In this document: one piece after another, positions 14,790 through 62,365 of the stretch | Position numbering within the stretch: the stretch's first letter is position 1 | How the letters are laid out: every line of letters starts with the position of its first letter | Notes under the pieces: generated by a model | Told to the model about the DNA's origin: nothing | What the model saw: the letters and a program-made list of their open reading frames with translations, nothing else | Database searches by the model: none | Program-made: the position numbers and the translations under genes | Assembly: GCA_016209015.1 (NCBI GenBank) | Contig: JACQWY010000012.1 | Span: forward strand, 16,462 to 80,461 | Direction of reading: 5' to 3' | Origin: Gammaproteobacteria bacterium | GTDB taxonomy: Bacteria > Pseudomonadota > Gammaproteobacteria > Ga0077536 | DNA: 64,000 nucleotides

Positions 14790-14820
14790 AGGAAGCTCCG
14801 GAAGAGTTCAGAGCGTCCTC
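14790..14820. repeat. Modular hairpin repeat, short copy (copy a)
   Basis: A 31-bp degenerate copy of the first hairpin of the dispersed repeat family: AGGAAGCTC...AGAGCGTCCT with mismatches near the loop. It lies between the convergent cheW-like and porin genes and touches the porin stop codon (14819-14821). It may act as a bidirectional 3' end structure. Confidence 0.6.
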
Positions 14821-16381
14821 AATACTTGAACTCGAGATTCAGGAACCACGCGTGGATGTCGTCCGGCACGGCATTCGCGACCGCGATCGGCGTGACGCCC
14901 GGCGTCGCCGGAAACGTGAACTGGTCCTGCGAATAGACGAGGTGCTGGGTGTCGAGCGCGAAGCGCAGGTACTTGCTGTAGTCGTAGGCGACGCCGCCGA
15001 CGAAGCGCTCGAAGTCGAAGGGATCCACGGCGACGTGCGTGTTCGGCAGGAAGCGCTGATAGGTGCCGAACAGCGTGAACGGCGTCGCGCCGATCCGGTA
15101 CCTGCCGAAGAAGTCGTAGCCTTCCTGCCGGCTCGAGCCGGTGTTCAGCACGCCGTTCGCGAGTGCCGCGAGGCCCGCGTAGCCTGTCGCCACGCCGAAC
15201 ACGTCGCCCGGGCCGCTGCCCGAGAACAGATTACCCGGCGTGAACGCATTGCGGCCCCAGTCGTATTCGCCGGCGAGCGCCCAGGCCTCGCTCGCGTAGT
15301 GCACGAGGAACGCGCCGCGCTCGAGGTCCGAATCCGGACCGCGGAACGGCGTAGTGATGGTCGTGTCGGGTGTCGCGTTACCGTGCCCGCGATCGTAGAA
15401 CGCGGTGACGCCCAGTCCATTGAAGCGCCCGGTGTAGCCGAAGGGATAATACGAGAGCCGCACCATCGCCTGCTTCTCCGCACTCTGCTCGAACGCGCGG
15501 AACGAGGCGTTGTCGTAGATGCCCACGTCGTAGTCGAGATACTTCGTGCCACCGAACGCGATCGGCCCCTGCGCCGAGAGCCCGGCCTGCGTCGAGGACA
15601 GGCCCGTGTAGTTCCAGGGCACGAGGTTCACGAAGCGGAAGCCGTACAAGGCTTCCTGCCAGTCGATGAACGGATTCATCTGCTGGCCGAGCGTGAGGGT
15701 GTCGCCCCGCAGCGCGGGAATGTCCTGGAACGCTTTGTTGTACTGCAGATAGGCGTATTTCAGGCGGAAGTTCAGGTTGCCGTCGAGATTGCTGCCGATG
15801 GCGGCGCTGCGTCCCGATTTGTCGGCGCCGCTCGCGCCGACGGCACGATAGATGTTCGGCGTCAGTCGGATCAGCCAGTCGTCGTCCGGCGTGAACAGGA
15901 AGTTCAGGTACGCGCGAGTGACGTCGAAGGCATTGAAACCGTCGTTGCCCGGACCCGGCGGGTTCACCTGCGTGAGGAACTGTGGACCGAAGCCCGTGTT
16001 CTGGTACATGCCCCAGTCGGCATAGACGAGCGTCGAGAGCTTGACGTGGTTCACCCACGACGCCGGCCCGGCATCCGCCGCGACGGGTGCGGGCGCAGGC
16101 GCGGGCGCGTCGGCGGCGACACTCGCGACAGCGCCCGACACTGCGGGCGCTGCGGCTGCCGGCGCCGCGGGCGCGGCGATCGCGCCGGCGAGCGCTGCGG
16201 CATCGTAAGTCGCACCGCCGAGCTTCAAGGGCACACGGCCTGGCCCCGGCTGCAGGAAGACCTGCGCGGTCTGGCGATCGACCCACAGGACGAGCTCCTG
16301 CTGGGCGGCATGGGCGATTTGCGAGGCGAGCGTGCCGAGCAACGCGGCGACGATGGGTGCGCGGCGCGTGACGAAGAACAT
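14819..16381 (-). CDS. Outer-membrane porin (OprO/OprP-like)
   Basis: 520 aa. The start is MFFVTRRAPIVAALLG with a GGGGG run upstream; a signal peptide ends near AHA|AQQ. An Ala/Pro-rich linker (about residues 70-110) precedes a beta-barrel made of alternating strands with aromatic girdles, for example LNFRLKYAYLQYNKAF and PFIDWQEALYGFRFVNLVPW, and ends in the outer-membrane signature Phe-Lys-Tyr. Phosphate-selective-type porins have this layout; the substrate cannot be predicted. The low-complexity linker after a short N-terminal segment is somewhat unusual. Confidence 0.85.
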   Translation of the reverse strand: MFFVTRRAPIVAALLGTLASQIAHAAQQELVLWVDRQTAQVFLQPGPGRVPLKLGGATYDAAALAGAIAAPAAPAAAAPAVSGAVASVAADAPAPAPAPVAADAGPASWVNHVKLSTLVYADWGMYQNTGFGPQFLTQVNPPGPGNDGFNAFDVTRAYLNFLFTPDDDWLIRLTPNIYRAVGASGADKSGRSAAIGSNLDGNLNFRLKYAYLQYNKAFQDIPALRGDTLTLGQQMNPFIDWQEALYGFRFVNLVPWNYTGLSSTQAGLSAQGPIAFGGTKYLDYDVGIYDNASFRAFEQSAEKQAMVRLSYYPFGYTGRFNGLGVTAFYDRGHGNATPDTTITTPFRGPDSDLERGAFLVHYASEAWALAGEYDWGRNAFTPGNLFSGSGPGDVFGVATGYAGLAALANGVLNTGSSRQEGYDFFGRYRIGATPFTLFGTYQRFLPNTHVAVDPFDFERFVGGVAYDYSKYLRFALDTQHLVYSQDQFTFPATPGVTPIAVANAVPDDIHAWFLNLEFKY

Positions 16382-16520
16382 GAGAACCCCCTGGGTGGTA
16401 GTGACGACGTGCTGGTGTGAGAAGCGGGTGCGCGGCGGGGTTCCGCCGCGGCACGAAACCGTCATATATACGCAGCGGACAACGCCGCCGCGCCGACACG
16501 GATTGCGCCGATCAGCCGGT

Positions 16521-17003
16521 TCAATTCGCGGCGAGCTTCTGCAGGTACACGGCGTAGGTGTAGTGCGTGCCGCTGTCGAGGCCATTCGACCACTCGACGG
16601 GCTCGATCTTGTAAGCGAGGCGATAGGCTGGTGAGGCGTGATGCGTCCACAGCCATTCGCCGTGGCGCTCGACGACCTCGCTGCCCCATTTCACCTCGAG
16701 CGTCGCCGGATCGAACGTCAGCCCCGGGAAGACGTAGTCGAGCGTCGTGCAGTCGTCGTCGGAGCCCCAGCGCGGCTTGCACGCCTGCAACTGCGCGCCG
16801 ACCTTGCGGCCGGTGCGGCCGTGATCGCTGCCGACGACGAAGTGCAGGTTCTCGACGTTGTCGCGGCCCGGCAGCGTGTTGTCGGCGAGCGGCGTGGCCT
16901 CGAGCGTTGCCGCGGCCCCGGCGACGGCCGGCAGCGCGTCGGTCGTCGAGGCGGCACCCGCTGCGGCGGAGAAGAGGAGCAGGGCGAGGGGGGGCATGTG
17001 CAT
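16521..17003 (-). CDS. Secreted protein of unknown function
   Basis: 160 aa. An N-terminal signal peptide (MHMPPLALLLFSAAAGAAST) starts at ATG 17003, with GGAG 8 bp upstream. The mature part has two Cys (CKPRWGSDDDC) that could form a disulphide and several Trp/Tyr-rich segments (HGEWLWTHHASPAYRLAY). I do not recognise a family. It lies 139 bp upstream of the porin gene on the same strand and may share its promoter, so a periplasmic partner role is possible but unproven. Confidence 0.7.
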   Translation of the reverse strand: MHMPPLALLLFSAAAGAASTTDALPAVAGAAATLEATPLADNTLPGRDNVENLHFVVGSDHGRTGRKVGAQLQACKPRWGSDDDCTTLDYVFPGLTFDPATLEVKWGSEVVERHGEWLWTHHASPAYRLAYKIEPVEWSNGLDSGTHYTYAVYLQKLAAN

Positions 17004-17386
17004 GTCGTGGGCTCCAGGTATCGCGGTGGATTGGAATGCGCGGCAAGGCTACGCGCGGCCCGTCAAGGCGATATGTAGAAACGTGAAGGAATGTGAAGCC
17101 GCGACGCCGCCCGACTCGCGGCCGGGCCGCTCGGAGGAAGGATGGACGGGGACGCGCAGGAGCCGACCCGAGGAAGCTCTGAATGAGTTCAGAGCATCCT
17201 GCGGCACATGGACATGCAGTGGCGTAAGCCGTGGTTCACGTAAGGTCGGTAAGAACCGCGCTTCTTGCCGACCGTGCTCCGGAAGATCCCCGGCGGACTC
17301 GTTCGCGGCTTCCCTAAATCATGTCGGGGTTCGGCCGATAAGACGCGTAGCTAGATTCCGAAGTCCATCACTGAGGACGTAAGACC
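17004..17386. promoter_or_regulatory. Divergent intergenic region upstream of the CRP-like gene
   Basis: 383 bp between two divergent genes. It contains the hairpin repeat at 17171-17284. The region just before the CRP gene (17310-17386) is less GC-rich and probably carries its promoter; GAGGA is present shortly before ATG. No perfect CRP site (TGTGA-N6-TCACA) was seen. Confidence 0.5.
17171..17284. repeat. Modular hairpin repeat, long copy (copy b)
   Basis: About 114 bp. It begins with an imperfect palindrome AGGAAGCTCTGAA...TTCAGAGCATCCT, then a shortened second hairpin (about 10 bp missing relative to the copy at 60509), then TGGCGTAAGCC with flanks, then TCGGTAAGAA...TTCTTGCCGA. The module order is the same as in the copies at 58291 and 60509. 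Confidence 0.8.
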
Positions 17387-18046
17387 ATGGTGCTTGCCCG
17401 CAAGCAATTCAGTCTCGAACCCTGGGAGACGGCGCTGCTGATGCACTGTCAACGTCGGCGCTATCCTCCGAAGGCGGCGATCCTCCGCCAGGGCGAGCCG
17501 GCCGACGAGTTGTTCTACATCGTGAAGGGCTCGGTGACGGTGCTGCTGGAAGACGAGTCCGGCCAGGAAATCGTGCTCGCCTATCTCTATGCACGCGAAA
17601 TCTTCGGCGAGCTCGGCATGTTCACGGCCGAGTCGAATCGCTGCGCGCTCGTCCGCGCGCGCGCCGACTGCGAAGTCGCGCACATGAGCTACGACCGGTT
17701 GCGCAGCATCCCCGATCTCTATCCGCGCGTGCTCGAGACCATGACCATTCAGCTCGCGAACCGGCTGCGCCGCACGAACCGCCGCCTCGGCGATCTCGCG
17801 TTCATGGACGTCTATGGCCGCGTCGCGCGCACGTTGCTCGAATTGAGCGAGAAGCCCGACGCCATGACGCATCCGGACGGCATGCAGGTCCGCGTCACGC
17901 GCCAGGAGCTCGCCCGTCTCGTCGCCTGCTCGCGCGAGATGGTCGGCAAAGTCCTCAAGGAGATGGAGGACCACCGTCAGGTGCAGGTGTTCGGCCGCAA
18001 CATCGTCGTGCCCAACCGCCCGCGCCTCGTCCCGCAGCCGCACTGA
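17387..18046 (+). CDS. CRP/FNR-family transcription regulator (Vfr/Clp-like)
   Basis: 219 aa. A cyclic-nucleotide-binding beta-roll (about 12-120) is followed by the long dimer helix and a winged helix (about 145-210). Its DNA-recognition region, VTRQELARLVACSREMVGKV, and the preceding RVARTLLELSEKPDAMTHPDG are strongly Vfr-like. In the effector pocket Gly74-Glu75 are kept and Arg85 aligns with the cAMP phosphate-binding Arg, but the following Ser of E. coli CRP is Cys86. Members regulate virulence, type IV pili and c-di-GMP or cAMP responses. The adjacent minor-pilin operon is a natural target. No Cys cluster for Fe-S is present. Confidence 0.92.
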   Translation: MVLARKQFSLEPWETALLMHCQRRRYPPKAAILRQGEPADELFYIVKGSVTVLLEDESGQEIVLAYLYAREIFGELGMFTAESNRCALVRARADCEVAHMSYDRLRSIPDLYPRVLETMTIQLANRLRRTNRRLGDLAFMDVYGRVARTLLELSEKPDAMTHPDGMQVRVTRQELARLVACSREMVGKVLKEMEDHRQVQVFGRNIVVPNRPRLVPQPH

Positions 18047-18090
18047 TCTCCCGGCCGGTCCGGCCGCGCGCCGGTCCGGATCCTCTGGAC

Positions 18091-18132
18091 GAAGCGCTGA
18101 ACAAGTCCATCCTGGACTTTTCGGAGCTTCCT
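18091..18132. repeat. Modular hairpin repeat, single-hairpin form (copy c)
   Basis: 42 bp, 45 bp after the CRP-like stop codon. It folds as GAAGCGCTGAACAAGTCC / ATCCT / GGACTTTTCGGAGCTTC. This equals the reverse complement of the right-hand module of the long copy at 58291. Confidence 0.75.
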
Positions 18133-18287
18133 CGAGCTCCCTTCGTCGCTTCGAGCCTGCCGCTCGTCGGCGCCACGATGCCGGTCGGCCCACCGCTGCG
18201 CGCGCGCCGCTGCCGCTCGTGGCGGAACCGCTACCGCTCGTTGAGCCGCGGCCGCGCGGCGGGCCGCATCGCCGCATACTCGGCGTC

Positions 18288-18899
18288 ATGCAAAGCTCGG
18301 GCGGCTTCACGATCTTCGAACTGCTGATCACCGTGGCGGTGCTCGGCATCGCACTCTCGATCGGCGTGCCGTCGCTGCAGCAGTTCATCATGGACAACCG
18401 TCTCGTCTCGCAGCTCAATCAGCTCTCGAGCGCGCTCGCGCTCGCACGGAGCGAGGCCGTCAAGCAGAACGTGCCCGTCATCGTCTGTGTCAGCTCCGAC
18501 GGCAAGAACTGCGATACCTCGGGCGTGAACTGGGATCGCGGCTGGATCGTCTTCGTCGATCGCAATGCGAACAGGAGCATCGACGGCAGCGGTGACGGCT
18601 GTGCCCAGGGCGCGACGGCGGACTGCGTGCTCGCCGTGCAGAGCGCGTTCCCGGCCGGCGTGACGACGCTCGTGCCCGCAACGGGCGTCGCGAAGCTGAT
18701 CGGCTACGACGGCACGGGCGCCGCACGCTGCGACAAGGATGCGGACGGCACGTTCGAGGACTGCGCGAGCGCGGCGAGCTATTTCACGCTGTGCGACAGC
18801 CGCGGCGCGGCCCATGCCCGCGCGCTCGCGGTCAGCCGCACCGGGCGCAGCACGATCGCCGCGACGGATCCGCTGGGTGCTGCGCTGACATGTCCGTGA
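18288..18899 (+). CDS. fimT: GspH/FimT-type minor pseudopilin
   Basis: 203 aa. A five-residue leader and prepilin peptidase site (MQSSG|FTIFELLITV) with Glu at +5 are followed by one N-terminal hydrophobic helix and a GspH-type C-terminal domain. It is the first gene of a five-gene operon (fimT-pilV-pilW-pilX-pilY1) encoding the minor pilins that prime type IV pilus assembly. The mature part has several Cys that could form disulphides. The gene could equally be named fimU. Confidence 0.88.
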   Translation: MQSSGGFTIFELLITVAVLGIALSIGVPSLQQFIMDNRLVSQLNQLSSALALARSEAVKQNVPVIVCVSSDGKNCDTSGVNWDRGWIVFVDRNANRSIDGSGDGCAQGATADCVLAVQSAFPAGVTTLVPATGVAKLIGYDGTGAARCDKDADGTFEDCASAASYFTLCDSRGAAHARALAVSRTGRSTIAATDPLGAALTCP

Positions 18900-19471
18900 C
18901 GCGCTGTGCCGCCGCGCGCGGCTTCACGCTGCTCGAAGTGATGATCGCCGTGGTGGTGTTCTCGATAGGCCTGCTCGGTATCGCGGGCCTGCAGGTCGCG
19001 GGCATGCGCTTCACGCACGACGCGCACCTGCGCTCGATCGCGACCGCCCAGGCCGAGAACATGGCCGACCGGATGCGGACGAACGCGGCGGGCATGGCCG
19101 CCGGCAACTACGACGTCAGCGGCGCGATGCCGACGTCCTATCCGAAGGACTGCGATGCCAGGCAGTGCACGCCGGCAGAGCTCGCCACCTTCGACCTCGT
19201 CTCCTGGAACACCGCGGTCGCGAACAAGGCGGTGGAAAGCAATGCCGGGCTCCTGCCGGGCGGCGACGGCGTCGTCTGTCTGGATTCGACCCCCGACGAC
19301 GGCGACACCGGCAACTGGCAGTGCGACGACAAGGGATCGGTCTACGCCGTGAAGCTGCGTTGGGTCGAGCGCACGAGCGGCGCGAACGACACCGGACAGA
19401 AGACCACGGGCACCACGACGCTGTCGGCCGACACCGAGCGCCAGCGGCTCGTGCTGAGAGTGCTGCCGTGA
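18890..19471 (+). CDS. pilV: Minor pilin PilV
   Basis: 193 aa. The leader ends at RG|FTLLEVMIAVVVFSIGLLG with Glu +5, followed by a typical PilV segment (AQAENMADRMRTN). The chosen ATG overlaps fimT by 10 bp; a GTG two codons later gives a GTGA overlap and is also possible. It is a minor pilin of the priming complex. The Cys pair in CDARQC may stabilise the head domain. Confidence 0.9.
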   Translation: MSVTRCAAARGFTLLEVMIAVVVFSIGLLGIAGLQVAGMRFTHDAHLRSIATAQAENMADRMRTNAAGMAAGNYDVSGAMPTSYPKDCDARQCTPAELATFDLVSWNTAVANKAVESNAGLLPGGDGVVCLDSTPDDGDTGNWQCDDKGSVYAVKLRWVERTSGANDTGQKTTGTTTLSADTERQRLVLRVLP

Positions 19472-20493
19472 GGCGCGTCGGCGAGCGCGGCATCACGCTG
19501 ATCGAGATGATGGTCGCGATCACGGTCGGTCTGATTCTCATCGCCGGTGTCGTGCAGCTCTTCGTCAGCAACAAGAAGGCCTATCGCGTGCAGGAGGCGG
19601 CGAACGTGCTCGACGAGAACGCGCGCTACGCCGCGAACCAGCTCGAGTATCACCTGCGCATGGCGGATCACTGGGGCGGCGTGAAGGCGAGCGACGTCAC
19701 CGTCGACGGCGGTGTGGCGGCGCTCGCCGCGGACTGCAAGCCGGCGAGCCCGACAATCAGCGCGACCGGCGTGCAGGGCTTCGACGGCGCCGGTGCGAAC
19801 CCGCCGCTCGCCTGCATCCCGAAAGCCGATTACGCCGCGGACACGGACGTGGTGGCGCTGCATTTCGCGGGCCCGCTGCGCATCGATTCGGCAACGGTGC
19901 AGAAGGACGCGACCGGGCTCTACGTGCGTGCGGGCGTCGGTCGCCGCGCGATGATCTTCGACGGCGAGGACATCGCGAAGCTGCCGGGCGATCTCTACGA
20001 TCCGGCGAAGCCCGACCCGGACCCGATCGCGAACTACGGCTACAACGCCGTCGTCTACTTCATCCGCGGATGTGCGAATCAGGATCTCACGCTCGCCACG
20101 CCGGTCTGCGACGCGAAATCGGACACCACGCCGACGCTCACGCGCCTCGTGCTGAGCGGCAATCAGCTCGTGCAGGAGGATCTCGTCGCGGGCGTGGAGC
20201 AGATGCAGGTGAGTTACGGCGTCGACACGAACGGCGACCGCTCGGTCGATCGGTATGAGAACGCGACGGAGGTCACCGGCGCGAACGACTGGCCGAACGT
20301 CGTCGCCGTCCGCCTGAGCCTGCTCGTGCGCAATCCGGAGCTCGATCCGGTGTTCACCGACACCGCGACGTATCAGCTGCTCGGCGGCGCCGGCGGCACG
20401 ACCGTGGCCGTCACGCCGGCGGCGGCCGTGCAGCACTACCACCGCAAGCTCTTCAATTTCACCGTCCAGATCCGCAACACGACGCGAGGCTGA
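19468..20493 (+). CDS. pilW: Minor pilin PilW
   Basis: 341 aa from a GTG overlapping the pilV stop (GTGA). The prepilin site ERG|ITLIEMMVAITVGLILI has Glu +5. The family signature YRVQEAANVLDENARYAANQLEYHLR follows the N-terminal helix as two adjacent short blocks. The large C-terminal domain has Cys residues and DTNGDRSVDRYE, which resembles a calcium-binding loop. It acts with PilV, PilX and FimT in the priming complex and adhesin display. Confidence 0.9.
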   Translation: MRRVGERGITLIEMMVAITVGLILIAGVVQLFVSNKKAYRVQEAANVLDENARYAANQLEYHLRMADHWGGVKASDVTVDGGVAALAADCKPASPTISATGVQGFDGAGANPPLACIPKADYAADTDVVALHFAGPLRIDSATVQKDATGLYVRAGVGRRAMIFDGEDIAKLPGDLYDPAKPDPDPIANYGYNAVVYFIRGCANQDLTLATPVCDAKSDTTPTLTRLVLSGNQLVQEDLVAGVEQMQVSYGVDTNGDRSVDRYENATEVTGANDWPNVVAVRLSLLVRNPELDPVFTDTATYQLLGGAGGTTVAVTPAAAVQHYHRKLFNFTVQIRNTTRG

Positions 20494-20495
20494 GC

Positions 20496-21125
20496 ATGTA
20501 TCGGAAGCACCTCACGCGCCAGCGCGGCCTCGCTCTCGTCGTCGCGCTCGTACTGCTGCTCATCATGACCATGGTCGCGGTCGTCGCGATGCGCACGACC
20601 GCGCTCGATCTCAGGATGGCCTCGAACACGACCGTCACGCGGCGCGCGTTCCAGAATTCGGACGGCGCGCGCGTCTCGCTCGGACCGATGCTCGACGCGC
20701 ACGTGTTCTACCGCGGCTGGCCGGGGGCGATCGGCGGCAGCCTGCCGGCGAACGTCGTCTTCCCCGTGCCCGTCGAAGTGAAGATCGCCGACGCGACGAA
20801 GATGTACTACATGGGTGACAACGGCACGCTCGCCGAGGCGATCAAGAGCGCGCCGCGCGCCGTCGACGTGCGCTTCCGCGCCGACGTGAATAACGACGGC
20901 AGCGTCGATGCGGCGGACATGTTCGCGGATCTCTGGGTGAGCCGCCTCGGCGCGCTGCCGGCGCCGGGCTCGGGCGCGGCGCAGGGTGCCGGCTATCTCG
21001 GGCCCGGCGTCGGTGCGGCGGGCTCGGACGCCTATGTCTTCTTCGATCTCCGCTCGAAGGGCGAGTCCGTCGGCAATGCCGCGTCGACCACGAGCGCCGA
21101 TTACCGCGCGCTCATTCGCAACTGA
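20496..21125 (+). CDS. pilX: Minor pilin PilX
   Basis: 209 aa, starting 2 bp after the pilW stop. The leader region RQRG|LALVVALVLLLIMTMVAVVAM is a prepilin-type helix, but the +5 residue is Val, not Glu, as in tip pseudopilins of the GspK type. A PilX-like stretch (TTALDLRMASN) follows. Near residue 130 there is a Dx[DN]xDGS loop (DVNNDGSVDAADM) suggestive of calcium binding. PilX would connect PilY1 to the minor-pilin complex. Confidence 0.87.
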   Translation: MYRKHLTRQRGLALVVALVLLLIMTMVAVVAMRTTALDLRMASNTTVTRRAFQNSDGARVSLGPMLDAHVFYRGWPGAIGGSLPANVVFPVPVEVKIADATKMYYMGDNGTLAEAIKSAPRAVDVRFRADVNNDGSVDAADMFADLWVSRLGALPAPGSGAAQGAGYLGPGVGAAGSDAYVFFDLRSKGESVGNAASTTSADYRALIRN

Positions 21126-21149
21126 TTCCGGCACGGAGGAGACTCGACC

Positions 21150-27372: not shown

Positions 27373-27383
27373 GGCCTGCCCGC

Positions 27384-32016: not shown

Positions 32017-32060
32017 AGGAAGCTCTGAATAAGCCCATCCGGGACTTTTCGGAGCGTCCT
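32017..32060. repeat. Modular hairpin repeat, single-hairpin form (copy d)
   Basis: 44 bp, 29 bp after the DUF1636 stop. It reads AGGAAGCTCTGAATAAGCCC / ATCC / GGGACTTTTCGGAGCGTCCT, the same orientation and form as the copy at 18091. It separates this operon from the amidohydrolase gene and may act as a 3' end hairpin. Confidence 0.75.
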
Positions 32061-54582: not shown

Positions 54583-54749
54583 CGCGTCGTCCTTTCGGAA
54601 AGGCGTGGGCCGGAGAGCTGCCGCGGATCATAGCGGCTCGCGCCGCGAACGCGAACCGACGAGCCGCGGGCCCGAAGGGCGCGCGCCGCCCGGGGGAGAC
54701 CGTTTCGGTTCTTGAACGAGGCCCGGAAAGCGCAGGGTGCGGATGGGCG

Positions 54750-55373
54750 CTAGCGGTGTCGTGCGAAGAAGGCGACGCGCGGCATGCGCCGTCGCCGCGT
54801 CCCGAGCGCGACCAGCGCGCAGACGAGTGACCACACGGACGCGGGAACGGGCACCGGCGTTCCCGTCAGCACGCCGCCGACGATCGCCCGCGACGTGCCG
54901 CGCGGAGCATTGATGTGCTCGCCCGAGCTCAGGTAGCTGCCGTCGGCGACGAGCACGGCCGAGCCGCCGCCGCTGTCGAGCGCGAAATCGGTGGACAGCC
55001 GCAGATCGCGCAGCAGGGATTGCGAGCCGACGGTATAGGTGAAGCGCAGCGTCATCGCCGAGCCGGCGTTGCCCGGTATCTCGACGGCTGCGCTGCCGCT
55101 CGAATTCGGGCCCGGGCTCGGAAAGTAGTAGAAGGCCGTGAGATCGGCCGTCGCGCCCGAACCGGCGGTGACGCCGATCGAATAGTCGCCGACCGTGTGA
55201 CTGTCTGCGTCATAGACGAAGAAGCCGGACGCTGCGGCGCCGTCCGTGAACGTCACGGAAGACAGCGACCAGACGACCGGCGCCGCGCCCGCCGTTCCGC
55301 ACGCCGCGAGACCGGCCGCCAGCACGGCGGCCCGCGTCGCGCCGTGACGATCATGGATTGCCTCGTTCTTCAT
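54750..55373 (-). CDS. PEP-CTERM-like exported protein
   Basis: 207 aa; GGAGGTG seven bases before ATG 55373. Signal peptide about 1-30 (ending TAGA|AP). A Ser/Thr/Gly-rich beta domain follows (VTFTDGAAASGFFVYDADS), typical of small exported PEP-CTERM proteins. The C-terminus is VPVPASVWSLVCALVALGTR followed by Arg residues: a VPxPA variant of the sorting motif, a helix and a basic cluster, but extended by about 11 residues. Such proteins are sorted by exosortase and linked to exopolysaccharide. No exosortase gene is in the window. Confidence 0.75.
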   Translation of the reverse strand: MKNEAIHDRHGATRAAVLAAGLAACGTAGAAPVVWSLSSVTFTDGAAASGFFVYDADSHTVGDYSIGVTAGSGATADLTAFYYFPSPGPNSSGSAAVEIPGNAGSAMTLRFTYTVGSQSLLRDLRLSTDFALDSGGGSAVLVADGSYLSSGEHINAPRGTSRAIVGGVLTGTPVPVPASVWSLVCALVALGTRRRRMPRVAFFARHR

Positions 55374-55471
55374 GTCGTCGCACCTCCGCTCGAGAAAAAC
55401 GCCTTCCGAACGATTGGGGTGGACTCGAGCCGCTCGGCGCGGCGTCTTTCCGGAGCTCTCGACCCGGGTCC

Positions 55472-56440
55472 TCATTCCACCTGCAACAAGTGCACGCTGA
55501 ACATCGTCTGCGCATCCGTCCACACCTCGCGCGTCGCGAAGCCGGCACCGCGGGCGAGCTGCGCGAACTCCTCGATGCCGTACTTGTAGGAGTTCTCGGT
55601 GTGGATCGTCTCGCCTTCCCCGAACGCGTAAGTGCGGCCGGCGACGCGTACGGTCTGCGCGCACGTCGAGACGAGGTGCATCTCGATGCGTCCGGCGTGC
55701 TCGTTGTAGAACGCGCGATGACGGAAACGCGCGAGGGCGAAATCGGCGTCGAGCTCGCGGTTCATGCGGCGCAGCAGGTTCGAGTTGAACGCGGCGGTCA
55801 CGCCCGCGGCATCGTCGTAAGCCGCGTCGAGAATCGCGCGATCCTTCTTGAGATCGACGCCGATGAGCAGCCAGCCGCCGGGGCCGACGAGACCGGCGAT
55901 GCGGTGCAGGAAGCGCCGTGCAGCGAGCGGTTCCAGATTGCCGATCGTCGAGCCGGGGAAGAACGCGGTGACGGCGAGACCCGGCGGATGATGCGGCAGA
56001 TGCCGGAGCTCACCGTAGTCCGCGCAGACGGCGTGCACGGCGATGTTCGGGAAGTCGCGCGCGATCTGCCGGGCGGCCTGTTTCAGATGCGCTTTCGAGA
56101 TGTCGATCGGCATGTAGACGCGCGGTGCGAGCGCCGGCAGCAGGAGGCGGATCTTGCGATCGCTGCCGCTGCCGAATTCGACGAGCAGCGTCTCGGTGCC
56201 GAGGCGCGCGGCGATGTCGCCGGCATGGCGCTCCAGGATCTCGACTTCGCAGCGCGTCGGGTAGTACTCGGGCAGCTCGCAGATGCGCTCGAACAGCGCC
56301 GAGCCCGCGGCGTCGTAGAAGAACTGCGGCGGGATGCGCTTGGGGCAGTGCGCGAGACCCGCATGCACTTCGGCGGCGAACTGCGCGAGCTCGGGCGCGA
56401 GATCGTGGAAAACGGGGGCGGTATTGGGTTTCGGGCTCAT
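55472..56440 (-). CDS. egtD: L-histidine N-alpha-methyltransferase EgtD
   Basis: 322 aa. SAM-dependent methyltransferase of the EgtD family: FFYDAAGSALFERICELPEYYPTR near the N-terminus, LLVEFGSGSDRKIRLLL (SAM-binding loop), FFPGSTIGNLEP and the C-terminal TENSYKYGIEEF region with the histidine-binding signature. It makes hercynine (trimethylhistidine), the first committed intermediate of ergothioneine. It starts 3 bp after the egtB stop, so the two genes are co-transcribed. Confidence 0.93.
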   Translation of the reverse strand: MSPKPNTAPVFHDLAPELAQFAAEVHAGLAHCPKRIPPQFFYDAAGSALFERICELPEYYPTRCEVEILERHAGDIAARLGTETLLVEFGSGSDRKIRLLLPALAPRVYMPIDISKAHLKQAARQIARDFPNIAVHAVCADYGELRHLPHHPPGLAVTAFFPGSTIGNLEPLAARRFLHRIAGLVGPGGWLLIGVDLKKDRAILDAAYDDAAGVTAAFNSNLLRRMNRELDADFALARFRHRAFYNEHAGRIEMHLVSTCAQTVRVAGRTYAFGEGETIHTENSYKYGIEEFAQLARGAGFATREVWTDAQTMFSVHLLQVE

Positions 56441-56443
56441 CGT

Positions 56444-57730
56444 TCAGTCCTCCGCGAGGCGGATGCCGGTGAACTGCCAGCGTTCGGCCGGATAGAAGAA
56501 ATTGCGGTACGTCGGCCGGATGTGATCCGCGGGCGTGGCGCAGGAGCCGCCGCGCAGCACGAACTGGCTCGCCATGAATTTGCCGTTGTATTCGCCGAGC
56601 GCGCCTTGCAGCGGCGCGAAGCCGGGGTAGGGCGAATACGCGCTCTGCGTCCATTCCCAGACGTCGCCGTAGAGCTGTGCGTAGCCGGCGCCGTCGCCGC
56701 GCGCGGCATGCGGGTGGAGATAACTCGATTCCACGAAGTTGCCGGTCATCGGCGCGCCTGAGGCCGCGGTCTCCCATTCCGCCTCGGTCGGCAGACGCCG
56801 GCCCGCCCAGCGCGCATAGGCGTCGGCTTCGTAATAGCTGACGTGCGTGACCGGTGCCTGCGGGTCGACGGGCTGCAGGCCGTGCAGCGTGAAGTAATGC
56901 CACGCGCCGTCGCGTTGCTGCCAGTACAGCGGCGCGTCCCAGCCCTCGCGTCGCACCGTCGCCCAGCCGTCCGAGAGCCAGAGCGGCGCGGCGCGATAGC
57001 CGCCGTCCGCGATGAACTCGAGATACTCGCCGTTCGTCACGGGCCGGCTCGCGAGCGCGTAGTCCTCGAGGAACACGCGATGGCGCGGGCGCTCGTTGTC
57101 GAACGCGAACGCCGCGCGGTCCCAGCCGATTTCGCGAATGCCGCCGGGCTCGCGCAGCCAGCGCAGGCTCGCGGGCTCGCCGCCGCGCGCATGCTCGCCG
57201 GCCGGCCGGTATTCGGGATGCAGGGGATTGAGACTGAAGTTGTATTTCAGATCCGTCAGCAGGAGCTCCTGGTGCTGCTGCTCGTGATGCGTGCCGATCT
57301 CGAGGCGCGCGCAGACTTCGGGCCACTGCGTATCCGGCGCCGCGGCGATGAGCGCATCGACGGCCGCGTCGACCGCCTCGCGATAGGCGAGCACCTCGGC
57401 GACCGTCGGGCGCGAGAGCAGGCCGCGCTGCGCCCGCGGGAAGAACGTGCCGACCGTCTCGTAGTAGGAGTTGAAGAGATACGCATAGGCCGGGTGGACT
57501 TCACGGTAGGCCTTCGCGTAGGGCACGAGCACGAGCTGCTCGAAGAACCACGTCGTGTGCGCGAGGTGCCAGCGCGGGGGGCTCGCGAAGGGCGCGCCCT
57601 GCACGACGTAATCCTCGGTTTCGAGCGGCGCGCAGAGTGCGCGCGAAGCTGCGCGGACCTGCCGGTAGCGCGCGAGCAGGGCGTCGCGATCGCCGGGGTG
57701 GTGCGGGACGGGGTGGATGGGGCTCGTCAT
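56444..57730 (-). CDS. egtB: Ergothioneine sulfoxide synthase EgtB
   Basis: 428 aa; GAGGTG before ATG 57730. The N-terminal DinB-like helical domain carries an iron-binding His (RWHLAHTTWFFEQ, His58) and the HHEQQHQELL motif (His149, His153), the three-His site of the family. The C-terminal FGE/sulfatase-modifying fold contains RPVTNGEYLEF and VTHVSYYEADAYARWAGRRL. The enzyme couples hercynine to a thiol donor with O2 to give the sulfoxide. Genes for EgtC, EgtE or EgtA are not in the window, so a type using cysteine directly or a distant lyase is possible. Confidence 0.93.
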   Translation of the reverse strand: MTSPIHPVPHHPGDRDALLARYRQVRAASRALCAPLETEDYVVQGAPFASPPRWHLAHTTWFFEQLVLVPYAKAYREVHPAYAYLFNSYYETVGTFFPRAQRGLLSRPTVAEVLAYREAVDAAVDALIAAAPDTQWPEVCARLEIGTHHEQQHQELLLTDLKYNFSLNPLHPEYRPAGEHARGGEPASLRWLREPGGIREIGWDRAAFAFDNERPRHRVFLEDYALASRPVTNGEYLEFIADGGYRAAPLWLSDGWATVRREGWDAPLYWQQRDGAWHYFTLHGLQPVDPQAPVTHVSYYEADAYARWAGRRLPTEAEWETAASGAPMTGNFVESSYLHPHAARGDGAGYAQLYGDVWEWTQSAYSPYPGFAPLQGALGEYNGKFMASQFVLRGGSCATPADHIRPTYRNFFYPAERWQFTGIRLAED

Positions 57731-57800
57731 CGATCACCTCGGATGTTCTCGCGGGTTCAGCAAGCGCCGTGCCGCGCGACGAGGCGTCCGTGCGCCCGGC

Positions 57801-57806
57801 TATAAT
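57801..57806 (+). promoter_or_regulatory. Perfect -10 hexamer (TATAAT) upstream of the DUF427 gene
   Basis: TATAAT sits in the gap between divergent egtB and DUF427 genes, about 200 bp before the DUF427 start. The -35 region (around 57778) is GC-rich and weak, so the promoter call is tentative. The inverted repeat at 57866-57957 would lie in its 5' leader. Confidence 0.4.
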
Positions 57807-57865
57807 CGTCGCGACCCAACAGTCATGAAAATTGTGCAGCGCCCGCACTCATGAAAGACGCGTAG

Positions 57866-57957
57866 GGGAAATTGGGGTCAGGTTCGATTTCGCGGCCAAC
57901 GCGGTGGCTCGTGACCGGGCGATCGCCCGCGAATTCGAACCTGGCCCCATTTCCCGC
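57866..57957. repeat. GGGGTCAG-type inverted repeat element
   Basis: Arms of about 28 bp: the left runs GGGGAAATTGGGGTCAGGTT into CGATTTCGC; the right is its imperfect reverse complement (GCGAATTCGAACCTGGCCCC then ATTTCCC). The loop is about 35 bp. It belongs to the same broad family as 40245-40323, but its arms are far apart. Confidence 0.7.
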
Positions 57958-58006
57958 CGGCGCCGCCGCTCTTTCACGGCAACGATATCACAACGAGGTA
58001 TACCCC

Positions 58007-58291
58007 ATGCCGAAGGCCCTCTGGAACGGTGCGGTCCTCGCCGAGAGCGCGGATTGTGAACGCGTGGAAGGTAATTTTTACTTCCCTGCCGACTCCATCA
58101 ATCGTCAGTACTTCGAGCCGAGTACGACCCACACGGTCTGCGGCTGGAAGGGCACGGCGAGCTATTACGACGTCGTCGTCGACGGCCGGCGCAATCCCGA
58201 CGCGGCCTGGTATTACCCGACGCCGAAGGATGCCGCGCGCAACATCGCGGGCCATGTCGCGTTCTGGAAGGGCGTGACCGTCGAGCCCTAG
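58007..58291 (+). CDS. DUF427-family protein
   Basis: 94 aa; GAGG before ATG. Matches the short DUF427 pattern throughout: WNGAVLAESADCERVEGNFYF, CGWKGTASYYDVVVDG, DAAWYYPTPKDAARNIAGH, VAFWKGV. DUF427 proteins are small beta-rich proteins of unknown function, often annotated only as conserved. The stop TAG overlaps the first base of the hairpin repeat at 58291. Confidence 0.9.
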   Translation: MPKALWNGAVLAESADCERVEGNFYFPADSINRQYFEPSTTHTVCGWKGTASYYDVVVDGRRNPDAAWYYPTPKDAARNIAGHVAFWKGVTVEP

Positions 58292-58500
58292 GGAAGCTCT
58301 GAACAAGTTCAGAGCTTCCGGCGGCACAGGGATGTGCCGCCGTGAACAGTGGCGTAAGCCATTGTTCACGTAAGGTCGGCAAGAACCACGCTTCTTGCCG
58401 ACCGTGCTCTGAAAAGTCCAGGATGGAAAGGTCGGCAAGAACCACGCTTCTTGCCGACCGTGCTCTGAAAAGTCCAGGATGGACTTATTCAGAGCTTCCC
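58291..58500. repeat. Modular hairpin repeat, longest copy (copy e), with 56-bp tandem duplication
   Basis: 210 bp bounded by inverted ends GGGAAGCTCTGAACAAGT (58291-58308) and ACTTATTCAGAGCTTCCC (58483-58500). Inside, in order: hairpin GGAAGCTCTGAAC-AA-GTTCAGAGCTTCC; hairpin CGGCGGCACA-GGGA-TGTGCCGCCG; hairpin GTGAACAGTGGC-GTAA-GCCATTGTTCAC; hairpin GGTCGGCAAGAA-CCACGC-TTCTTGCCGACC; and an AAGTCC-AGGAT-GGACTT hairpin. The fourth hairpin plus following bases (58372-58427) is repeated exactly at 58428-58483. Confidence 0.92.
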
Positions 58501-58537
58501 TAGTCCCTGCGCCGGGCGGGGACCGGCGGATCAGCCG

Positions 58538-58568
58538 GCGGTTATTCGCGGCCTCCGCGAATAACCGC
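58538..58568. repeat. Perfect 14-bp inverted repeat (hairpin)
   Basis: GCGGTTATTCGCGG-CCT-CCGCGAATAACCGC. A strong hairpin with no T-run, about 80 bp before the SDR start. A related GCGGTTTTTCGC occurs at 58589-58600. It could be an operator, a terminator-like stem or a REP. Confidence 0.7.
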
Positions 58569-58648
58569 GGGCCGGCCCGGAGGAATTAGCGGTTTTTCGC
58601 GCCGGCGCTGGGCCCGGCAGGTGGCACACGCGTTGCTCTCCTCGCGGC

Positions 58649-59449
58649 ATGGGATGCAGGCCGACACGACCCGAAAGCGGGACACCGCGGCCGGTGGAGC
58701 AGCCGCGCGGTGTGCCGTCGCGTCCGCTCGCCGGGCGCTGTGCGCTCGTCATGGACGCCGGGACGGGTGTGCAGGCCGGCGTCGCCCGTGCGCTCGCCGC
58801 GGCCGGCGCCCGGCTCGCGCTCTGCGATACGCGCCGGGCGGACGCCGCGGCCGGACTCGCCCGCGACCTCGTGGCCGCCGGCGGCGAAGCGCTCGCGGTG
58901 CGTGCCGATCCCGGCGCTGACGACGAAGCCGGGGGGCTGTTCGCCCGCCTCCAGGACGTCTTCGGCGGCCTCGACATTCTCGTCGTCGGGAGCGGACCGC
59001 CGCCCGAGGGACCCGTCCTCGAGCTGCCGCTCGCGGACTGGCGGCGGGAGCTGGACGTCAATCTCACGGGGATATTCCTGCTGGTGCGCGCCGCGGCACG
59101 CTGCTTCGTACGGCGTGGCGGCGGCACGCTGCTCCTCGTCCGCGAGGCGCAGGGACCCGGGGCGGGTCACGGCGTCGCGCGGGCCGGGCTCGCGGCGCTC
59201 ATGGACGTGCTCGCGCGCGAGCTCGCGCCGCACCGGGTGCGGGTGAACACGCTCGCGGCCGGCGTGCTGCGCGCCCCGGCCGATCCGGCCGGGGCGGCCG
59301 AGCTCCTGGCGCGCATCCCCTCGGGCCGGACCGGTACGCCGGCCGACGTCGCGCGGGCGGCGGTGTGGCTGTGCTCCGACGAGGCTGCCTACGTCACCGG
59401 TGCGACGCTGCACGTCGACGGCGGGCTGTCCCTCGGGCGCAGGGATTAG
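58649..59449 (+). CDS. Degenerate short-chain dehydrogenase/reductase
   Basis: 266 aa; the start is uncertain (ATG 58649, or GTG 58712 nearer the domain start). SDR fold throughout: the nucleotide-binding strand reads VMDAGTGVQAGVARALAAAG instead of TGxxxGIG. NNAG is replaced by VGSG, and the catalytic YxxxK reads HGVAR with the preceding Ser region LLLVREAQGPG. VNTLAAG and the C-terminal VTGATLHVDGG are kept. It looks like a non-catalytic or re-purposed SDR. Its neighbour, 121 bp downstream on the same strand, is a LysR regulator. Confidence 0.8.
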   Translation: MGCRPTRPESGTPRPVEQPRGVPSRPLAGRCALVMDAGTGVQAGVARALAAAGARLALCDTRRADAAAGLARDLVAAGGEALAVRADPGADDEAGGLFARLQDVFGGLDILVVGSGPPPEGPVLELPLADWRRELDVNLTGIFLLVRAAARCFVRRGGGTLLLVREAQGPGAGHGVARAGLAALMDVLARELAPHRVRVNTLAAGVLRAPADPAGAAELLARIPSGRTGTPADVARAAVWLCSDEAAYVTGATLHVDGGLSLGRRD

Positions 59450-59570
59450 CCGCGCGGTCGACAGCCCCGCGCACGACTCATTACCATGCGTGCATGCCGA
59501 TCACCGCTCCCGCCCATTCCGCCGCTCGCGGACCCTGGCGCGGCCGGCCCGCGGCCGCCGGGGACGAGTC

Positions 59571-60479
59571 GTGAATCTGAAACACCTGCGCTATTTCGTC
59601 GAAATCATCGAACAGGGCTCGCTGATGCGCGCCGCCGAAACGCTGTTCGTCGCCCAACCCTCGCTGAGTCAGCACATCCGCAATCTCGAGCAGGAGCTCG
59701 GGGTGAAGCTCTTCGACCGCTCCGTGAAAGGCATGGTGCCGACGGAAGCGGGCCAGGAGCTGCTCGAGCACGCGCGCGTCATCCTCGCGCACGTCGACAG
59801 CGCGGAGGAGGCCGTGCGTGCGCGCAGCGTCGAGCCGCAGGGCAGCGTGGTGCTCGGCCTGCCGCCGAGCGTGAGCGCGATCCTCACCGTGCCGTTCGTC
59901 GTCGAGATGCAGCGTGTGCTGCCGAACGTCTCGCTGCGCATCGCCGAGGGCTACAGCGGTTACGTGCTGAACTGGCTGCAGGCGGGGCAGGTCGATCTCG
60001 GCGTGCTCTACGGCATCCAGCGCGCGCCCGGCATCGTCGCGCGCGAGCTCTTCCAGGAACAGCTCTATCTCATCTGCCCGCCGGGGTTCGCCGCGGATCG
60101 CACGAGCGTGCCGTTCCACGACCTCGGCGCGGTGGGCCTCGTCCTGCCGGGCCGCCATCACGGCCTGCGTGACACGCTCGAACGATTCGCACGCGATCAC
60201 GACGTGCCGCTGGACGTGAAAGTCGAGGTCGACGCCTTCACACAGATGAAAGCGCTCATCGCGCACGGCGTCGGCTGCACGGTGCTGCCCTACGGCGCGG
60301 TGAAGGACGAGGTCGCCCGCGGCGAGCTCGGCGCGATGCGCATCGTCGAACCGACGGTCGAACGTACGATGTATCTCGCACAGGCGAGCGGCCGCCCGGC
60401 GACGCGCGCGCAACGCGCGACGGAGGAACTGCTGGAGCGTTGTGTGCGGGAGTGTGGCGGAACCGTTGGCGGAAATTGA
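59571..60479 (+). CDS. LysR-family transcription regulator
   Basis: 302 aa from a GTG at 59571. N-terminal winged helix (1-60; LRYFVEIIEQGSLMRAAETL, AQPSLSQHIRNLEQELGVKL) is of the Nac/Cbl-like type. A linker helix and a two-lobed effector domain follow. The GTG overlaps the TGA of a 26-codon upstream frame (59493-59574), so translation may be coupled to a short leader. Targets are unknown; the SDR gene upstream and the gap after it are candidates. Confidence 0.9.
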   Translation: MNLKHLRYFVEIIEQGSLMRAAETLFVAQPSLSQHIRNLEQELGVKLFDRSVKGMVPTEAGQELLEHARVILAHVDSAEEAVRARSVEPQGSVVLGLPPSVSAILTVPFVVEMQRVLPNVSLRIAEGYSGYVLNWLQAGQVDLGVLYGIQRAPGIVARELFQEQLYLICPPGFAADRTSVPFHDLGAVGLVLPGRHHGLRDTLERFARDHDVPLDVKVEVDAFTQMKALIAHGVGCTVLPYGAVKDEVARGELGAMRIVEPTVERTMYLAQASGRPATRAQRATEELLERCVRECGGTVGGN

Positions 60480-60508
60480 GGGCGATAATTAAGGGGACAC
60501 GAAACTTA

Positions 60509-60647
60509 AGGAAGCTCTGAACAAGTTCAGAGCTTTCTGCGGCACATGGACGTGCCGCCGTGAACAGTGGCGTAAGCCATTGTTCACGTAAGGTCGGTTA
60601 GAACCACGCTTCTTGCCGACCGTGCTCTGAAAAGTCCAGGATGGACT
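60509..60647. repeat. Modular hairpin repeat, long copy (copy f)
   Basis: About 139 bp starting 30 bp after the LysR stop. It has the same module order as the copy at 58291 but with one copy of the 56-bp unit: AGGAAGCTCTGAACAAGTTC..., the CGGCACATGGACGTGCCG hairpin, GTGAACAGTGGCGTAAGCCA..., and TCGGTTAGAACCACGCTTCT.... It stops at AGTCCAGGATGGACT without the right terminal arm. Confidence 0.88.
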
Positions 60648-60673
60648 GACGCATTCCGCCTCGCCTGATCTTG

Positions 60674-60840
60674 GTCGCCCTCGCGCAGGCGAGGGTCCAG
60701 TCGGTGACCCATGGCACGCGCAGTGAACCCCGGACTTTCGAGAGCGCCGTTCCGCCCCGCGCTCGTCTTCTGCGCTGGCCCCGCGGTTCGACCTCGGCGC
60801 CGAGGCTGAACGACTGGGCCCTCGCCTGCGCGAGGGCGAC
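60674..60840. repeat. 167-bp element with 30-bp terminal inverted repeats
   Basis: The left arm (60674-60703) and right arm (60811-60840) are reverse complements with one mismatch in 30. Each arm contains its own palindrome, CCCTCGCGCAGGCGAGGG. The 107-bp centre codes for nothing recognisable. It resembles a MITE or paired REP (BIME-like) element. It lies 26 bp after the modular hairpin repeat. Confidence 0.85.
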
Positions 60841-60960
60841 ACGTGGGAAATACGCGCTGCGGTGTGCCGAGGAGCAGTCCCGCAGTTCGGAGGCAAACGA
60901 AGTATCAGCCCGGTCGTCGACCTCGACGATCGTCAGCGTCCTCATCCGGCCCCACCCGTG

Positions 60961-60990
60961 AAAAAAGACCCCGGCATTTCCGCCGGGGTC
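60961..60990 (-). terminator. Rho-independent terminator on the minus strand
   Basis: On the minus strand GACCCCGGC-GGAAAT-GCCGGGGTC is followed by TTTTTT (60966-60961): a 9-bp GC-rich stem and a U-run. No minus-strand gene precedes it, so it probably ends a short RNA (see 60961-61037). Confidence 0.75.
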
Positions 60991-61037
60991 GACGACCGAG
61001 CTGAAGTGGCCGCGACATCCTGGGGGATATCGCGACG
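60961..61037 (-). ncRNA. Candidate small RNA with 5' hairpin and intrinsic terminator
   Basis: A minus-strand -10 element TATCAT (61049-61044) would start a transcript near 61037. The first structure is a 10-bp stem with one mismatch (61034-61011; CGCGATATCC pairing with GGATGTCGCG). A roughly 20-nt linker and the intrinsic terminator with six U residues follow. This is the layout of many Hfq-type sRNAs. The -35 is weak (TTGGCG with 19-bp spacing), so the call is tentative. No known family recognised. Confidence 0.4.
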
Positions 61038-61269
61038 CCGCGGATGATAGGGGATGACCGCAAGCGCCCGCCAATAGGAAAGCTTGCTGACTGGCATCGC
61101 AAAATCCTATGGGCGCCGCGCCCGCCTTTGCTGTTATCGTCTCGCGCCAATCGAGGGGGCACGACCCCCGATTGCCGGCGACCGCCGCGCCGACGCCGGC
61201 AGTCGGGCAATCGGGTCTCGTGTTCCCGTCATCCCGCCCGCTCCAATCGAATACGAGAGGTCCTCCAGC
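61038..61269. promoter_or_regulatory. 5' region of the second LLM oxidoreductase gene
   Basis: 232 bp before the LLM start. It includes a long hairpin with arms CCCGATTGCC (61167-61176) and GGCAATCGGG (61206-61215) and a GC-rich internal stem, probably in the leader RNA. GAGAGG lies about nine bases before ATG 61270. The minus-strand sRNA promoter is at its left end. Confidence 0.4.
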
Positions 61270-62337
61270 ATGGATTACGGTTTCGTCTTTCCCGCCGGCA
61301 TTCGCATCTACGAGGATGTGGCGTACGCCGAGCAGCACGGCTTCACGCACGCCTGGCTCTACGACTCGCAGATGCTGTTCAGCGACCCCTACGCCAGCCT
61401 CTGCATGTGCGCGGTCAACACCAGGACGATCAAGCTGGGCACGGGTGTGACGAATCCCGAGTCGCGCATCGCGCCGGTGACCGCGAACTCGATCGCCACC
61501 GTCAACGAGCTCGCGCCCGGCCGTGCGATCCTCGGCATCGGCACCGGCAACACCGCGCGCCGCACCCTCGGCATGCCGGCCTCGAAGCTCGAGGTCATGC
61601 GCGATCACATCCGCATCTGTCAGGACCTCTTCGAAGGCAAGACCACGGACTACACCGAGGGCAATCGCCATCGCAGGATCAAGTTCCTCAATCCGGACGC
61701 CGACTGGTACAACATCAAGACGAAGATTCCGATCTACATCGCGGCAAGCGGCCCGAAGAGCCTCGAGATGGCGGGCGAGATCGCGGACGGCGTCATCCTC
61801 TTCGGCGCGGTGAGCCCGTCGCTCATCAACTTCGTCATGGATCACGTGAGAGCAGGCGCCGAGCGCGTCGGCCGCAATCCCGACGACGTCTACGCACTCT
61901 GCATGACCGCGTTCCACCTGACGGCGAAAGGCGAGAAGCTCGAGACCTCGAAGGTGCGCCGGGCCGTCGGCCCGTTCGTCTCCTCGTGCACGAACATCTT
62001 CGCGCTGTCGAATCCGGATCCGACGACGCTGCCGGCGGATCTCCGCGACGACATCGTGAAGTTCCGCGACATCTACAAGGTTCCGGAAGGCCCGATCGAG
62101 ACGCGTCACCTGAAGATGTACTCGGACTATCTGCTCGGCTTCAAGGCGGAGCACGAGGCCGTCGTCTCCGAGAAGATCATCCGTGCGACCACGCTCACCG
62201 GCACCGCAGACGAAATCGTGGACGCCGTGCAGAACATGAAGGAGGCCGGCATCCATCAGGTCGCGATCCAGCCGATCATCGACAACCGGAAGACGGTCGA
62301 GGTGTTCGCGAAGGAGATCATGTCGCGCGTGAAGTGA
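61270..62337 (+). CDS. LLM-class flavin-dependent oxidoreductase (355 aa)
   Basis: Luciferase-like TIM barrel: DYGFVFPAGIRIYEDVAYAE, TIKLGTGVTNPESRIAPVTA, PGRAILGIGTGNTARRTLG, and KIPIYIAASGPKSLEMAGEI are typical. The pattern fits the F420-dependent methylene-H4MPT reductase-like or FMN-type branch of LLM proteins; the cofactor cannot be decided from sequence alone. It is longer than the LLM protein at 41251 and only distantly similar. It stands alone between two repeats. Confidence 0.87.
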   Translation: MDYGFVFPAGIRIYEDVAYAEQHGFTHAWLYDSQMLFSDPYASLCMCAVNTRTIKLGTGVTNPESRIAPVTANSIATVNELAPGRAILGIGTGNTARRTLGMPASKLEVMRDHIRICQDLFEGKTTDYTEGNRHRRIKFLNPDADWYNIKTKIPIYIAASGPKSLEMAGEIADGVILFGAVSPSLINFVMDHVRAGAERVGRNPDDVYALCMTAFHLTAKGEKLETSKVRRAVGPFVSSCTNIFALSNPDPTTLPADLRDDIVKFRDIYKVPEGPIETRHLKMYSDYLLGFKAEHEAVVSEKIIRATTLTGTADEIVDAVQNMKEAGIHQVAIQPIIDNRKTVEVFAKEIMSRVK

Positions 62338-62365
62338 AGGAAGCGCTGAACCCGTTCGGCGCTTG
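62338..62365. repeat. Modular hairpin repeat, decayed copy (copy g)
   Basis: Directly after the LLM stop: AGGAAGCGCTGAAC-CC-GTTCGGCGCTT, a shortened relative of the first hairpin module, with compensating changes (GCGC/GCGC) that keep the stem. Confidence 0.55.

Follow-up and report, generated by a model that had tools for sequence, protein, structure and literature searches.

The 64,000-nucleotide stretch analysed here (the window; contig JACQWY010000012.1, positions 16,462 to 80,461, of the gammaproteobacterial draft genome GCA_016209015.1) carries copies of an intergenic repeat of about 152 bp. We consider it probable that this repeat is a non-autonomous mobile element, likely moved by transposases of the IS5 family, and that it specifies an RNA of five hairpins (A to E) of which two, B and E, expose loops of the CsrA/RsmA-binding type. 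The element would accordingly represent a mobile CsrA-binding RNA. The evidence comprises the flanks and ends of the copies, the covariation of the folded interior and the sequences of the hairpin loops. Genomes and loci are given below by our handles (G and L, respectively).

Transposition and the likely mover

The repeats are copies of a transposable element, as is evident from their inverted ends, from identical 4-bp flanks and from a site that a sister species has without the element. We compared the flanks of 185 copies, taken from 34 genomes, and found identical 4-bp words at 114 of them, compared to a mean of 20 and a largest value of 33 in 2000 shuffles. Among these 114 pairs the words TTAA (36), CTAA (23), TTAG (18) and CTAG (8) were recorded, the remainder being other words. 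YTAR, the target of IS5-group mobilisation, is located at the left flank of 110 and at the right flank of 114 of the 185 copies. In the source genome of the window, a 5.7-Mb draft, 23 of 42 copies have identical flanks, and 17 of the other 19 are devoid of one recognisable end. Two genomes of the same genus (G116 and G343) have 173 and 18 bases, respectively, at one site according to BLAST coordinates, and the difference of 155 equals the 151-bp element plus a 4-bp target. The same site is also without the element in G240, a member of another genus, with a length difference of 186 that is less exact than 155. In G116 this copy (L166) is situated 14 bases past the upstream open reading frame (ORF) and just ahead of another frame that, by eye from the letters, reads like a seryl-tRNA synthetase. 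The empty-site candidates L177 and L342 were rejected because their identical sequence represents one genome.

A length of about 152 bp, the absence of coding capacity, inverted ends, multiple copies and a target-site duplication are the features by which we assign the element to the miniature inverted-repeat transposable elements (MITEs). Its nearness to stop codons, which had been noticed in the first-pass annotation of this DNA, is a consequence of the preferred target, since YTAR contains TAA/TAG: of 111 gene ends, 20 have their stop codon in direct contact with the element, and the copy at 58292 starts immediately 3′ of the stop codon of ORF 57872–58291.

A search for PF01609 in 16 element-bearing genomes resulted in matches in 12 of them and in none in the other 4. 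Among 30 fetched loci, transposon copies of G337, G116, G008, G295 and G360 have element-like inverted ends 1.16–1.22 kb apart and identical 4-bp flanks, among them TTAG (L130), CTAG (L139) and CTAA (L150). All five transposases tested, every one from a relative, passed the NCBIfam IS5 model NF033581. The ends of the insertion sequence in G295 read GGAAACGCTGA; the element copies of G295 and G184 tend to CGCTGA and most others to CTCTGA, the former word being present also in some genomes outside the class (Gammaproteobacteria). In G159 a PF01609 copy is adjacent to an element, each junction being marked by CTAA. Judged by these similarities, IS5-family transposases probably act on the element in trans. 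As a separate observation, repeats resembling clustered regularly interspaced short palindromic repeats adjoin a PF01609 transposase copy of G159 (L149, ~2380–2500).

Copies in the window and in the source genome

The first-pass annotation had listed seven places in the window as one family of hairpin repeats. All seven are real but unequal in length and strength, comprising three long copies, two solo hairpins of 42 bp and two weak palindromes of 28 bp:

58288–58291, no strand: left target duplication CTAG, the TAG of which terminates ORF 57872–58291
58292–58499, + strand: long element copy with the D-E stretch duplicated
58500–58503, no strand: right target duplication CTAG
58292–58319, + strand: hairpin A with the left inverted end
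58320–58341, + strand: hairpin B; loop AGGGAT at 58328–58333 (A-N-GGA-N with AC/GT closing; motif from PMC7652899)
58342–58369, + strand: hairpin C; loop GTAA
58374–58403, + strand: hairpin D, first copy
58406–58427, + strand: hairpin E, partial first copy; loop AGGAT at 58420–58424
58430–58459, + strand: hairpin D, second copy; spacing 56
58462–58499, + strand: hairpin E, including the right inverted end; loop AGGAT at 58476–58480, CsrB-like CAGGATG
60510–60647, + strand: long element copy, end of hairpin E absent; left flank TTAA at 60506–60509, loop B ATGGAC at 60546–60551
17172–17313, + strand: old diverged copy with decayed hairpins B and E; right flank CTAA at 17314–17317, left flank CCGA
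18090–18131, − strand: solo hairpin E, 42 bp
32018–32059, − strand: solo hairpin E, 42 bp
14791–14818, no strand: solo hairpin A-like palindrome, 28 bp, weak
62339–62366, no strand: solo hairpin A-like palindrome, 28 bp, weak

With a covariance model trained on 17 copies, the 17172 copy among them, the long copies scored E = 3e-39 (58292–58499), 9e-40 (60510–60647) and 8e-29 (17172–17313). The word GGAAGCTCTGAA at ≤2 mismatches is found 16 times in the window versus 2.9 expected, and 16 was reached by none of 100 shuffles. The 42-bp copies at 18090–18131 and 32018–32059 equal, as had been described, the reverse complement of the right end of the long copies; genome-wide at ≤3 mismatches only three such solo hairpins were detected, two of them in the window, and none with the reversed-pattern control. 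The 28-bp palindromes at 14791 and 62339 may be decayed element ends or coincidence, the best overlapping model matches having E = 0.05 and 0.009.

A search of the source genome with a long copy revealed at least 41 long matches to the element, several at contig ends (40 of 133 candidates were scored for this genome-wide count). The half-hairpin of the right end gave 72 genome matches at ≤3 mismatches and none with the reversed pattern. The genome-wide search and the covariance model, both proposed in the first-pass annotation, thus produced further copies and base-pair covariation between them, and the compensating stem changes that it had noticed are genuine. As to its interpretation, the idea of a non-coding mobile element was borne out by the matching 4-bp flanks, the empty site and the IS5-family transposons with similar ends in relatives; an origin by RAYT-type transposases and a function as RNA 3′-end structure were not (see below), and the GGA loops had been absent from it.

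A conserved interior predicted to fold as RNA

The single strand is predicted to fold into five consecutive hairpins, A to E, with −100.8 kcal/mol (z = −14.2), compared to −91 kcal/mol (z = −10.8) for the opposite strand. In an alignment of 36 copies 97.3% of 2012 cells are paired, and two-sided changes affect 46 of the 56 pairs. A second set consists of 30 copies, of which 28 come from genomes outside the class; here 93.7% of the cells are paired, with two-sided changes in 54 of the 56 pairs. Both alignments were fitted to the covariance model and hence lean towards structure. None of 500 shuffles of the 36 copies reached any of five measures, and sliding of the pairing partners as a control reduced pairing to 35–51% in the first and to 39–45% in the second set.

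G-T and A-C mismatches should arise equally in hairpins of double-stranded DNA, whereas RNA tolerates G-U. When three pairs with common or fixed G-U were omitted, we counted 94 G-U versus 52 A-C events (one event being a genome and pair; p = 6e-4), and 140 versus 58 with all pairs kept, the events being not fully independent. The second set has 60 G-U versus 16 A-C cells with four pairs omitted. In both sets the excess of G-U over A-C speaks for selection at the level of RNA, on the strand with the GGA motifs. A pseudoknot of loop D with the next linker was inspected by eye only and is not claimed.

GGA loops and CsrA

The loops were evaluated in 122 of 145 rows of the alignments A3 and A4 (32 genomes); rows were dropped if they represented repeated places or identical sequences, if the start was not GGA, GGG or GAA or if more than 8 cells were unpaired. 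GGA is present in loop B of 113 and in loop E of 118 of these elements (in both loops of 109), in loop C of 8 and in none of the loops A and D. Loop B reads ANGGAN in 108 of the 122, the first N taking all four bases. Loop E reads A(N)GGA in 105, with CAGGATG as the commonest form and CTGGATG as the most frequent exception (9). The second set, consisting of 30 elements from 28 genomes outside the training copies, has GGA in loop B of 28, in loop E of 28 and in both of 26 elements, in no loop A and in one loop D; ANGGAN was found in 27 of the 30 B loops, and the E loops are often unlike those of the model (CATGGACG, CACGGACG). The GGA motifs of loops B and E are 91–93 nt apart (about 92 nt) in 90 of 105 measured copies.

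According to PMC7652899, the CsrA consensus obtained by systematic evolution of ligands by exponential enrichment (SELEX) is RUACARGGAUGU, RsmE recognises ANGGAN loops with a free N and AC/GU closing pairs, and the loop repeat of CsrB is CAGGA(U/A/C)G. Hairpin B of the 58292 copy, ACAGGGATGT, fits the last ten letters of the SELEX consensus, and the E loop fits the CsrB repeat. A CsrA gene was identified in 39 of 42 element genomes tested, including the source genome. The element hence shows two characters expected of a CsrA/RsmA-binding RNA, namely ANGGA or CAGGA in hairpin loops and a CsrA encoded by the host, and it likely scatters predicted CsrA-binding sites through genomes. Apart from this, a viral contig (L095, 6316–6335) contains the hairpin-B word GCGGCACAGGGANGTGCCGC but without a covariance-model match.

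Distribution and modular rearrangement

The model found the element in 74 genomes of the class (369 sampled) and in 45 of the phylum (398 sampled). Of the latter, 42 lie outside the class, and 35 of these 42 belong to one family (f207). Among the matches listed, confirmed carriers are Thioalkalivibrio thiocyanoxidans ARh2 and metagenome-assembled genomes (MAGs) labelled Thioalkalivibrio, Halothiobacillus and Immundisolibacter; further MAG carriers are labelled Chromatiales, Thiotrichales, Granulosicoccaceae, Gammaproteobacteria and, once, Nitrospirae. The MAG labelled Nitrospirae carries the element at L269 (7217–7376) and L286 (1615–1776), which could be due to transfer or to mis-binning. When 22 loci of a pattern scan (among the matches listed) were tested again with the model, 18 were confirmed and 4 were not; the latter, in two Streptomyces, in Dokdonella and in Eremiobacterota, were taken as chance.

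In a few genomes the core of the element is found between other palindromes. These are CAGGCTGYTGAAA, flanked on either side by CTAA or TTAG (L381, L380; duplications read by eye), GAGCCTGTCGCAG (L385, L377) and TGATGRYTTYG (L382 twice, L388, L372). If confirmed, the different ends would mean that the core has passed between transposon types. Tandem arrays with a period of ~123 bases are present in G054 (L246, 1526–2157; L247, 1529–1923), in which one hairpin E seems to double as hairpin A of the next unit. Recombination between the repeated words GCTCTGAA and TTCAGAGCTTCC inside the element is the probable source of the solo hairpins and tandem arrays: a deletion between two GCTCTGAA words would leave a solo 42-bp hairpin E, a deletion between two TTCAGAGCTTCC words a solo hairpin A.

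Copies of the source genome have lost the right end (e.g. L002, L004, L008, L009, L014, L018, L019) or contain duplications (e.g. L001, L007, L010, L013, L020). Both kinds of change are concentrated at the E loop, which is also a place of contig ends, and they may represent an assembly artefact or breakage induced by the hairpin. A second dispersed repeat family with inverted ends of ~30 bp (GTCGCCCTCGCGCAGGCGAGGG...) abuts several truncated element copies. It was observed in the window at 60648–60857 and at L026 (546–1257), L043 (1283–1466), L049 (1179–1355), L006 (149–213), L002 (1637–1734) and L062 (2857–2898). The short match at L062 is located ~1 kb from a Y1_Tnp (RAYT-like) gene, and this second family may be the REP/REPIN (repetitive extragenic palindromic) family of the genome.

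Comparison with known systems

BOX of Streptococcus and bcr1 of Bacillus, both from Firmicutes, are modular or multi-hairpin mobile intergenic repeats to which the element can be likened. Bacterial MITEs with IS5-type partners, and QMITE1 and QMITE2 of Coxiella, resemble it in being short, non-coding and multi-copy with inverted ends, target duplications and a stable predicted RNA, and some QMITE copies give rise to small RNAs (PMC5896051, PMC10969869). The present element differs from them in a conserved interior, which covaries in many families and has retained two loops of the CsrA type; the word CsrA is absent from the text of both papers. CsrB/RsmZ-type RNAs likewise expose GGA in hairpin loops, and loops E and B correspond to the CsrB repeat and to ANGGAN, respectively, but CsrB and RsmZ are single small-RNA genes with many sites (PMC7652899), whereas the element is a two-site unit spread by transposition. 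REP/REPIN sequences are similarly intergenic, palindromic, mobile and of high copy number; they are linked to RAYT (REP-associated tyrosine transposase) genes (PMC3116915), while the element has 4-bp duplications and IS5-like ends instead. Searches of the open-access literature brought up no mobile element with CsrA sites.

No Rfam family reached its gathering score in the window. Sub-threshold matches were obtained at L015, where the full gyrA RNA model (RF01740) can be aligned with hairpins D-E (33.9 bits, E 3e-7, gathering score 45) and ivy-DE (RF02999) aligns with hairpins A-B including ACAGGGA (22.3 bits, gathering score 41.4). Identity of the element with the gyrA RNA was rejected on account of this score. 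Twenty other element sources searched together had no Rfam match at E ≤ 0.01.

Weighing of the explanations

Several observations weigh against a mobile CsrA-binding RNA moved by IS5 transposases. Three IS5 copies have flanks other than YTAR (ATAA, L126; TAAG, L127; TATA, L134), and neither PF01609 (IS5-type) nor PF13546 (IS701-type), the two families searched, matched in the source draft; its mover is thus absent from the assembly, has been lost or belongs to another family. CsrA may bind less readily to very stable structures (PMC7652899), and the stems of the element are long and stable. In 13 of the 122 elements one of the loops B and E is without GGA, including two G033 copies (loop B ATGGCT), and loop E of the source genome has five bases and is not a hexaloop. 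The model by which both loop sets were retrieved has GGA loops of its own. CsrA was not found in 3 of the 42 element genomes (the drafts G043, G127 and G157), and it is encoded in 20 of 25 genomes without an element match, so that its presence alone does not discriminate. No promoter was called in the two scanned window copies, nor was an intrinsic terminator of the kind expected for a CsrB-type gene called on their + strand. Finally, the orientation relative to neighbouring genes is biased only weakly.

The latter point bears on the question whether the RNA belongs to the 3′ ends of genes. ORFs were crudely called at 167 loci; after 46 loci that overlap an ORF and those with missing or distant neighbours had been set aside, 101 were left. 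At 47 of 78 loci of mid GC and at 11 of 23 of high GC the gene upstream points towards the 5′ end of the element. This near-random orientation is more in keeping with a scattered element than with a device dedicated to the 3′ untranslated region (UTR). In 58100–60700 no terminator was called on the + strand and one on the − strand, which uses hairpin A of the 60510 copy (1.2 expected). The RNA 3′-end structure considered in the first-pass annotation is not favoured by these data. A more general form of this idea, a MITE-borne structured RNA selected for a role other than CsrA binding, for example protection of mRNA 3′ ends or binding of another loop-binding protein, would explain the covariation and the RNA-strand bias, which are independent of the ligand, as well as the conserved loops C and D and the sub-threshold gyrA match in D-E. 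We nevertheless judge it to be quite unlikely, since loop B fits the hexaloop of CsrA/RsmE with its free N and AC/GU or equivalent closing, loop E fits the CsrB repeat (PMC7652899) and the + strand of the scanned stretch is without a terminator.

The repeat might also be an ordinary IS5-driven MITE of which the ends alone matter, the inner hairpins being baggage or acting at the level of DNA as cruciforms or as sites for host DNA-binding proteins. Ends, duplications and IS5 partners are enough for its spread, the orientation is nearly random and both strands fold well. The stems, however, are widely diverged and still paired, GGA is kept in the same two of five loops, and an excess of G-U over A-C is not required of DNA hairpins; we thus regard this explanation as unlikely, although less so than a structured RNA with another ligand. 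Movement as a REP/REPIN-type repeat by a RAYT tyrosine transposase, for which the first-pass annotation had proposed a test, was rejected and appears hardly credible. High-copy intergenic palindromes and five Y1_Tnp genes in the genome would suit it, and a 23-bp match to the left palindrome lies ~600 bp from the Y1_Tnp gene at L061, but no significant match was found at the other four RAYT-like loci, and the element ends are common to IS5-family transposons. The matching 4-bp flanks and the empty site contradict it in addition, as such duplications are, to our knowledge, not expected of REP/RAYT movement.

Mechanistic model and implications

For the mobile CsrA-binding RNA that we favour, the following sequence of events can be proposed. 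An IS5 transposase would recognise the ends of the element and move it in trans, and insertion at YTAR, which contains TAA/TAG, would often leave genes intact. Read-through transcription would then yield the hairpin array, and a CsrA dimer could bind to loops B and E. Many copies together would compete for CsrA in the manner of a sponge, whereas single copies would act in cis on the host transcript. A more far-reaching version, a transposable CsrA sponge, is put forward tentatively, as we would give it not quite an even chance: an old mobile RNA module on several unrelated sets of transposon ends and in more than one group of Proteobacteria, of which dozens of copies per genome might sequester or redirect CsrA/RsmA, so that the copy number would set the activity of a central switch of carbon metabolism, motility and biofilm formation.

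MITEs themselves are already known, and the aspect that seems to be new is a MITE with a conserved RNA as cargo that is predicted to bind a regulator. If true, this would be, as far as searches of the open-access literature show, the first known mobile element with conserved hairpins for a global post-transcriptional regulator, and it would account for intergenic repeats that form an abundant class in environmental Proteobacteria. It would also provide a testable case of an RNA domain that moves between transposon types, and it would suggest a route by which CsrA regulons may be rewired, through sites that land at stop codons and in UTRs.

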